From: an uncultured bacterium | GTDB lineage: Bacteria > Verrucomicrobiota > Lentisphaeria > Victivallales > UBA1829 | Assembly (NCBI GenBank): GCA_949297765.1 | Contig: CASFTV010000017.1 | Location: 1 to 64,000, forward strand | Length of the DNA stretch: 64,000 nt | Reading direction: 5' to 3' | Part shown: one piece after another, positions 7,231 to 29,772 of the stretch | Layout: each line of letters opens with the position of its first letter | Position numbering within the stretch: position 1 is the stretch's first letter | Translations under genes and position numbers: made by a program | Notes under the pieces: model-generated | Database searches by the model: none | The model's input: only the letters and a program-made list of their open reading frames with translations | Told to the model about the DNA's origin: nothing

Positions 7231-7316
7231 CGGAAAAATGCGACAGCATTTTTCCGGGTCAAGGACTCTGTCCTTGTCGCGGTCCAGCGGCGAGACGCTG
7301 GTCGTGCGAAGCACGA
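7231..7316 (-). repeat. Four-hairpin dispersed repeat, copy 1
   Basis: An 86-nt element that folds into four adjacent hairpins. H1 is 7231-7256 (11-bp stem, loop GACA). H2 is 7260-7276 (CAAGGAC/GTCCTTG, 3-nt loop). H3 is 7284-7301 (CCAGCG/CGCTGG, loop GCGAGA). H4 is 7302-7316 (TCGTGC/GCACGA, loop GAA). A second copy lies at 14100-14185. On the minus strand the order is H4-H3-H2-H1, then ATTTTTTA, then the Shine-Dalgarno and start of the lipoprotein gene 20 nt away. H1 plus the T-run therefore looks like an intrinsic terminator or attenuator. Confidence 0.85.
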
Positions 7317-7360
7317 AATCAAATCCCCCCATTTTCCACCCCGGAATCCCCCAATCCCAT

Positions 7361-7630
7361 TCAAATGGGCGGCCGTTTTATGATCGGCACATGAATCATC
7401 TTGTGATACTGTTCAATCGCGGCGAGTTTTTCACTGTTTTCACTGACTCTCCCTTCCATTTTTTCAATCCGCGCGGCATGGGCAAGCATATTTCCCATGC
7501 AGTCCGCCTTCAATACATATTGCGTCAGCGACTTGTGGAGCAGCCGGATTTCAGCGGCAACCCAGCCGAGAACGCCGGTCATCACGACCAGTGCTCCGGA
7601 GAGCATCGCAATAGCCCACCCCTCCGTCAT
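7361..7630 (-). CDS. Small one-TM protein, holin- or Rz-like
   Basis: An 89-residue protein starting MTEGWAIAML, preceded by GGAGG. One hydrophobic helix (about residues 5-25) is followed by a heptad-rich, probably coiled-coil region (about 45-80). The layout resembles small phage lysis or haemolysin XhlA-type proteins, but no diagnostic motif is seen. It overlaps the preceding gene by ATGA and is followed by the structured repeat. Function is not recognised with certainty. Confidence 0.5.
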   Translation of the reverse strand: MTEGWAIAMLSGALVVMTGVLGWVAAEIRLLHKSLTQYVLKADCMGNMLAHAARIEKMEGRVSENSEKLAAIEQYHKMIHVPIIKRPPI

Positions 7631-14099: not shown

Positions 14100-14185
14100 G
14101 GAACAATGCGGAACGCATTGTTCCTGGTCAAGGACTTCGTCCTTGTCGCGGTCCAGCGGCGAGACGCTGGTCGTGCGAAGCACGA
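14100..14185 (-). repeat. Four-hairpin dispersed repeat, copy 2
   Basis: Same length (86 nt) and fold as copy 1. H1 is 14100-14124 (11-bp stem, loop GAA). H2 is 14129-14145 (same stem, loop TTC rather than TCT). H3 is 14153-14170 and H4 is 14171-14185, both identical to copy 1. In H1 the A-T pair of copy 1 (7236/7251) is replaced by C-G (14104/14120), so pairing is kept while sequence changes. On the minus strand H1 is followed by ACTTTTC and then the AraC gene start 21 nt away, matching the placement of copy 1. Confidence 0.85.
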
Positions 14186-14228
14186 AACAAAACAAAACAA
14201 AACAAAACGAAACAAAACAAAACGAACC
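14184..14228. repeat. Pentanucleotide tandem repeat (RAAAC)
   Basis: Nine successive 5-bp units of the form AAAAC, with GAAAC or GAACC variants. The tract abuts hairpin H4 of repeat copy 2 and lies between the stop of the membrane operon and the AraC leader. Such tracts can change length by slippage; it is non-coding here. Confidence 0.8.
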
Positions 14229-14249
14229 AAACCCAACCCGAAACGCGAA

Positions 14250-29568: not shown

Positions 29569-29644
29569 GCCCCTATCGTCTAGAGGCCTAGGACACCAGG
29601 TTTTCATCCTGGCGACACGGGTTCGAATCCCGTTGGGGGTGCCA
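29569..29644 (+). tRNA. tRNA-Glu (UUC)
   Basis: A 76-nt cloverleaf: acceptor GCCCCTA with a 3' partner TGGGGGT, anticodon stem CCAGG/CCTGG with loop TTTTCAT giving anticodon TTC, T-loop GTTCGAATC, and an encoded CCA end. The first acceptor pair is G-T. It reads GAA and GAG codons. Confidence 0.95.
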
Positions 29645-29696: not shown

Positions 29697-29772
29697 GCCC
29701 CTATCGTCTAGAGGCCTAGGACACCAGGTTCTCATCCTGGTAACACGGGTTCGAATCCCGTTGGGGGTGCCA
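29697..29772 (+). tRNA. tRNA-Glu (CUC)
   Basis: It differs from the preceding tRNA at three of 76 positions: the anticodon first base (CTC instead of TTC) and two bases of the variable region. CCA is encoded. It reads GAG only. The two genes are 52 nt apart and evidently arose by tandem duplication. Confidence 0.95.

Follow-up and report, generated by a model that had tools for sequence, protein, structure and literature searches.

Within the window analysed here, a stretch of 64,000 nt from an uncultured Victivallales bacterium, an element of four consecutive hairpins occurs twice. A first-pass annotation of these letters left two readings of it, namely a leader terminator or attenuator of the minus-strand gene next to it, or a mobile REP-like element. 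Which of the two, if either, describes the element?

Copy 1 (type A, plus strand, 7231..7319, from H1 to CGAAAT) scores 107.4 bits with the covariance model described below. It begins with the variable stem H1 (7231..7256; 11 bp, loop GACA), which is followed by H2 (7260..7276; CAAGGAC-TCT-GTCCTTG, with GGT just before it), by the linker TCGCGGT (7277..7283), which is near invariant across Victivallales, by H3 (7284..7301; CCAGCG-GCGAGA-CGCTGG), the module with the highest conservation, and by the triloop hairpin H4 (7302..7316; TCGTGC-GAA-GCACGA, then AAAT). A G-poor 3' tail (7320..7360) extends up to the stop of the minus-strand gene at 7361-7630. Copy 2 (type A, plus strand, 14100..14187; 98.2 bits) has the same modules on the same strand: H1 (14100..14124; 11 bp, loop GAA), H2 (14129..14145; CAAGGAC-TTC-GTCCTTG), H3 (14153..14170), H4 (14171..14185) and a microsatellite-like, G-poor 3' tail of (AAAAC)n (14188..14240).

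The two 86-nt units of four adjacent hairpins reported by the first-pass annotation are indeed present at these positions and fold far better than shuffles. Both copies, on either strand, reach a minimum free energy between -40 and -44 kcal/mol (z between -4.4 and -5.4), and 0 of 200 shuffles fold as well. The stems of H2, H3 and H4 are identical between the copies, as had been noted, and the compensatory change in H1, where C-G in copy 2 replaces A-T in copy 1, is real. The loops were said to differ only in H2; the H2 loops do differ, but so do those of H1 (GACA compared to GAA plus one extra pair). Exact matches to the core number two in the 64-kb window, with zero expected. As a separate observation, the window contains two tandem tRNA genes that are 96% identical (29569-29641 and 29697-29769), and their anticodon-loop sequences suggest that they are Glu TTC and CTC.

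The first-pass annotation had proposed a search for further copies, and these are numerous. The host genome comprises 4.23 Mb in 92 contigs and is 98% complete; in it, an initial scored search found 40 copies and a search with the core pattern 38, with no match to the reversed control pattern. A covariance model built from the 40 copies detected 44 full copies on both strands at E <= 2e-10; three weak extra matches belong to a sister type. Compensatory changes beyond the one in the window are abundant. In the 40-copy alignment, standard pairs fill 99.2% of the pair cells, whereas control structures slid along the alignment are paired in only 39-44% of cells. Ten pairs are changed on both sides compared to 2.3 (sd 1.0) in shuffles; the aligned copies are paralogues and these counts are not independent events, though many different pairs are affected. 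H1 holds most of the double changes (7/9 pairs, 40 copies). The pairing is under selection in this repeat family. We found no Rfam match for the element at E<=1, nor at E<=0.5 when eight loci from the host and its relatives were searched; in these searches the repeat does not belong to a known Rfam RNA family.

To see how far the family extends, we compared the host with 60 relatives. An 88-nt consensus matches 15 of these 61 genomes, in the host genus, in other genera of the family and elsewhere in the order. A more general pattern, GGTCCAGC-loop-GCTGGTCG-stem-CGAAA, is present in 19 Victivallales genomes from four families. Among 388 Verrucomicrobiota genomes, this pattern has one chance-like match only outside Victivallales, and its reversed control has zero matches in every genome. 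The genomes are mostly metagenome assemblies, one per species, and each copy number in the relatives is to be read as 'at least'.

The architecture common to these genomes is [H2]-nCGCGGTC-[H3 CCAGC..GCTGG]-TCG-[H4]-CGAAA(T). H3 and its linkers (CGGTC; TCG-H4-CGAAA) hardly change across genera. The H2 stems include CAAGGAC, GCAGGTC, GCAGGAC, CCGGC, CCTCCG, CCCGG and others, and their sequences are unrelated between genera; of 107 distinct segments upstream of the core, 96 form at least five perfect H2 pairs, compared to 28 once they are shuffled. Similarly, H4 stems in the 19-genome set vary (TGC/GCA, CCC/GGG, CGC/GCG, CC/GG, TCC/GGA, CTCC/GGAG and others) above a nearly constant TCG..CGA base, and pairing is nearly always kept. 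H1, H2 and H4 are conserved in structure and the H3 core is conserved in sequence. Nearly all H4 loops consist of three nucleotides, and G[A/G/C]A is dominant among them. The GCGAAGC hairpin that the first-pass annotation pointed out in H4 occurs in some copies, but loops of AAA, AAC and ATA are also found. The oligonucleotide d(GCGAAGC) is an unusually stable DNA hairpin, and the prevalence of three-nucleotide loops, GNA included, is compatible with hairpins formed by DNA.

We also considered plasmids and phages as a source of the family. A plasmid origin was rejected: the sole plasmid matches are 26-nt exact identities to linker and H3 (GTCGCGGTCCAGCGGCGAGACGCTGG) on Vibrio plasmids (L213:3001-3026 and L214:2001-2026), which fall within annotated genes at both loci inspected, have no flanking hairpins and were judged to be chance. 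No phage match was found that would indicate a phage origin. Pattern matches in IMG/VR are mostly chance; one contig filed as viral, IMGVR_UViG_3300027985_001790, has two convincing architectures, each a full H2-core-H4 copy (L201:2449-2484 and L207:1928-1963).

The gene context of the copies was determined on 20-kb loci with a home-made gene finder based on hexamers, for which 0.8 Mb of host sequence served as training data; its calls are approximate and not those of a standard annotator. Relative to the element, the gaps of the 41 host copies are (-,-) in 19 cases, (+,-) in 11, (-,+) in five and (+,+) in two. Both neighbours could be called for 37 copies, and 32 of these adjoin at least one stop codon because their gaps are co-directional or convergent. 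Divergent gaps hold five of the 37 copies compared to a share of about 40% of control intergenic bases in the host; in the relatives, two type A copies are in divergent gaps. The CGAAA end points toward the stop codon in 31 of 39 host copies. In co-directional gaps, the host has 19 antisense and 2 sense copies (14:8 with looser gene calls, 19:2 with the better-trained ones), whereas type A copies in the relatives are 20 sense (+,+) and 6 antisense (-,-), often with H1 just past the stop. We therefore rejected a fixed gene orientation as a universal rule (19:2 in the host compared to 6:20 in the relatives). The sole context rule common to all genomes is nearness to gene 3' ends. Judged from their sequences, the neighbouring genes belong to large families such as prepilin-like proteins, AraC regulators and glycosidases; among them, we found neither a recurrent transposase nor a common function.

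Positions of the repeat differ between lineages. Three congeners (G001, G002 and G003) lack the element at the junction of copy 2: their glycerate kinase and their orthologue of the 14250-15851 gene are neighbours, separated by a short spacer, and both the AraC gene and the 11465-13129 gene are absent. As the host has two extra genes there, this is not an exact empty site. In the window, the segment 11465-14187 consists of a glycosidase-like gene, an AraC-type regulator and copy 2, placed between genes that are adjacent in the three congeners. Around copy 1, repeats of the family recur at the 3' end of the small gene 7361-7630 and its orthologues, with varied orientation and type. For instance, an orthologue or paralogue of this gene in G005 and G013 (genus g3) is accompanied by copies of its own that are oppositely oriented, and other paralogues have no copies. 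Some sites are common to sister species (L082/L087 and L086/L094), and the site shared by L045, L046 and L060 shows additional paired changes in H3 and H4. Neither a target-site duplication nor an exact empty site was demonstrable among the congeners, which are ~65-75% identical in coding DNA.

The unit is also part of larger architectures. In the host and its genus, type C repeats have five hairpins, in the order GCCCGNAGGGC / GGAGCCGNAGGCTC / GCAGGTC..GACCTGC / CAGC..GCTG / CCCGNAGGG, and end in the type A core and CGAAA (host C1:5349, C6:42018-42100, C7:77439-77529 and C7:78548-78629; L150:2161; L153:230). They are often inverted beside type A, with 3' ends or 5' ends facing. One such pair of type A and type C lies in a segment of ~1.7 kb that is 98% identical between L150 (host C55) and L072, from species otherwise ~65-75% alike; this identity possibly reflects a recent transfer. 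Genus g3 has a third type (B), and there an additional branched structure lies past the element. In G052 (L097-L099, L109), inverted repeat pairs enclose 0.5-0.6 kb of DNA that is complex, rich in hairpins and apparently non-coding; some of its parts are present at more than one locus, and we found no Y1 gene in it. In G001 and G002, the terminal unit TGCGAAGCACGAAATCTTTT (H4-CGAAATCTTTT) is repeated in tandem, with 3 to ~13 copies. Arrays of TGCGAAGCACGAAATCTTTT were seen in L082, L086, L087, L094 and L044, and their copy number varies at related sites of sister species.

The 3' tails have an unusual composition. Among host copies, G makes up ~8-15% of the 50 nt past CGAAA. A strong excess of C over G (<=4 G, >=15 C) is seen in 20 of the 40 tails, compared to 6 of 885 intergenic control windows and to 4 of 40 windows taken 5' of the element; the low-complexity, G-depleted tract is found on the 3' side only. 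Short-tandem-repeat scores of the tails exceed those of control windows (p ~2e-9) and of their own shuffles (p ~1e-6), and the (AAAAC)n tract of copy 2 exemplifies such tails. In the relatives, the tails are often structured, with a further hairpin, and not G-poor. Two host copies are clearly incomplete, and both lack the 5' part.

What kind of element would show these properties? A leader attenuator or terminator of the downstream minus-strand gene is suggested by the two window copies. They lie 20-21 nt before a minus-strand start codon, as first reported, if the starts are the ATG at ~7210 and the GTG at ~14078, and both end on the minus strand in a terminator-like hairpin and a T-rich stretch. 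However, this arrangement does not extend to the 40+ copies, among which distance, orientation and T-run are not conserved. Distances vary between overlap and 775 nt. On the minus strand, a T-run (an A-run on the plus strand) follows H1 in only 7 of 40 copies, and on the plus strand one follows H4 in 4 of 40; the family does not have the GC hairpin with a directly following T-run of an intrinsic terminator. Furthermore, the downstream genes are unrelated, an alternative antiterminator pairing was not seen, gene orientation is opposite between genomes and the copy 2 junction is element-free in congeners. We thus rejected the leader attenuator as a rule of the family and hold it to be highly improbable as an explanation, although a single exapted copy could act in this way. 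A host-maintained 3'-end element, that is, an mRNA 3' UTR stabiliser or a transcription end-point kept by selection on the neighbouring genes and not by transposition, would account for the adjoining stop codons, the avoidance of divergent gaps, the antisense excess in the host (19:2), and very stable hairpins under strong pairing selection. Nonetheless, we consider it unlikely, as the T-run is missing after H1 in 33 of 40 copies and after H4 in 36 of 40, the orientation is reversed in the relatives (20 sense to 6 antisense), the site of copy 2 is not conserved in congeners and the flanking genes have no common function.

Two further explanations assume that the element acts or spreads as RNA. 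Multicopy small RNA genes that act in trans would agree with RNA-type folding and covariation on either strand and with the intergenic location. We regard them as very doubtful, given that no sigma-70-like promoter was found beside the two window copies, that both strands fold about equally well, that Rfam has no match even at permissive thresholds and that the copies are embedded against stop codons. Alternatively, a SINE-like retroposed RNA would be reverse transcribed from the 3' end of the plus-strand RNA, and slippage would make the G-poor short-tandem-repeat tails. The restriction of low complexity and G depletion to the 3' tails and not the 5' flanks, the tandem repetition (~3-13 times) of the terminal H4-CGAAATCTTTT unit in G001 and G002 and the missing 5' part of the two incomplete host copies are consistent with this. 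Yet truncated copies number only two, no reverse transcriptase is linked to the repeat, the tails of relatives often form a further hairpin rather than a G-poor tract, and tandem arrays are also expected from replication slippage at a hairpin; retroposition is therefore quite improbable in our view. We give slightly less credence still to a full bacterial SINE-like element that would combine a structured RNA, 3'-primed reverse transcription, variable tails, some 5'-truncated copies and stems that are replaceable if paired.

We conclude that the element probably belongs to a family of REP/BIME-like, non-autonomous repeats in Victivallales. Of the two readings in the first-pass annotation, the mobile REP-like one is thus favoured by the dispersed and intergenic copies, their position at gene 3' ends, the inverted dimers and the lineage-specific sites. 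We infer that the family is mobile and that it has a mobilising enzyme. By analogy to Y1/HUH enzymes that read REP hairpins, an enzyme acting in trans would recognise the single-stranded H3 core and its linkers, and H1, H2 and H4 would be required only as hairpins. Under such recognition, stems could be replaced with pairing kept because H1, H2 and H4 need only stay hairpins. Insertions 3' of genes would be those that are tolerated. Transcribed copies would form a strongly structured 3' UTR and, as a secondary effect, may shield mRNA ends or define them, in the manner of REPs. The unusual features of the family are the order-wide replacement of stems around a fixed H3 core and the hypervariable, G-poor, microsatellite-like 3' tail.

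Several observations count against a REP/BIME-like family: no mobilising gene was found, the neighbouring genes include no recurrent transposase, neither a target-site duplication nor an exact empty site was demonstrable, and the orientation bias in the host (19:2) is stronger than purely random insertion would give, although the bias is opposite in the relatives. Mobilisation by RAYT/Y1 was rejected, as Y1_Tnp (PF01797) does not co-occur with the repeat. Six genomes have the repeat and no PF01797 match (G001, G002, G025, G043, G052 and G055), three have many Y1 genes and no repeat (G051, G056 and G059), and the 2.1-kb locus of the single host Y1 gene has no match to the core motif. REP-type repeats are usually tied to RAYT, whereas the Victivallales repeat spans families of the order without such a link. 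The dozens of replaced stems are a natural mutational scan of the requirements of an enzyme that mobilises the repeat or processes RNA, and the one-ended tails are a testable clue to the copying mechanism. In addition, the pattern and the covariance model provide a reproducible annotation of Victivallales intergenic DNA that is outside any Rfam family.

Lastly, we compared the repeat to known systems and assign it neither to the GTAG-REPs nor to the CGTC-REPs; in the literature searched, we found no paper that links Victivallis with repetitive extragenic palindromes. The ends of integron attC sites (RYYYAAC ... GTTRRRY) are not visible in the consensus. Among other repeats, bcr1 of Bacillus cereus, ERIC and BOX are intergenic structured RNA or DNA repeats of ~100 nt, and the mobilising enzyme is unclear for several of them. 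By description, the Victivallales family differs from these in its architecture and in its host order, and no terminal inverted repeats are seen in it. Both bcr1 and ERIC are named, together with NEMIS, in a work on REPs (PMC3733652). The GTAG-REP/BIME/REPIN repeats are short, stable, intergenic palindromes with many copies, which lie in co-directional or convergent gaps, form inverted dimers and vary in their stems with pairing kept (PMC3733652). The Victivallales repeat is likewise made of dispersed intergenic palindromes that occur in inverted pairs and near gene 3' ends. It differs in its unit of four to five hairpins with a G-poor variable tail, in its H3 core, which is fixed and has CGGTC and TCG..CGAAA as linkers, in a consensus that has conserved GGTC, CGCGGTC and TCG..CGAAA but no GTAG, and in having no co-occurring, repeat-flanked RAYT/Y1 gene. 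The CGTC-REPs of Rickettsia, alpha-proteobacteria and others are palindromes with an unpaired end tag, mostly in head-to-head dimers, and have no dedicated transposase; they consist of a single stem of 8-9 bp with complementary A/T at positions 1-2, a CGTC/TGTC/CCTC tag, a loop of 4-5 nt and a CCA tail (PMC3733652). In contrast, the H2 and H4 loops of the Victivallales repeat have mostly three nucleotides, GGTC precedes H2 and H3, and there is no CCA tail. Although these defining features differ, CGTC-REPs are, by analogy, a precedent for REPs that spread without a dedicated transposase.
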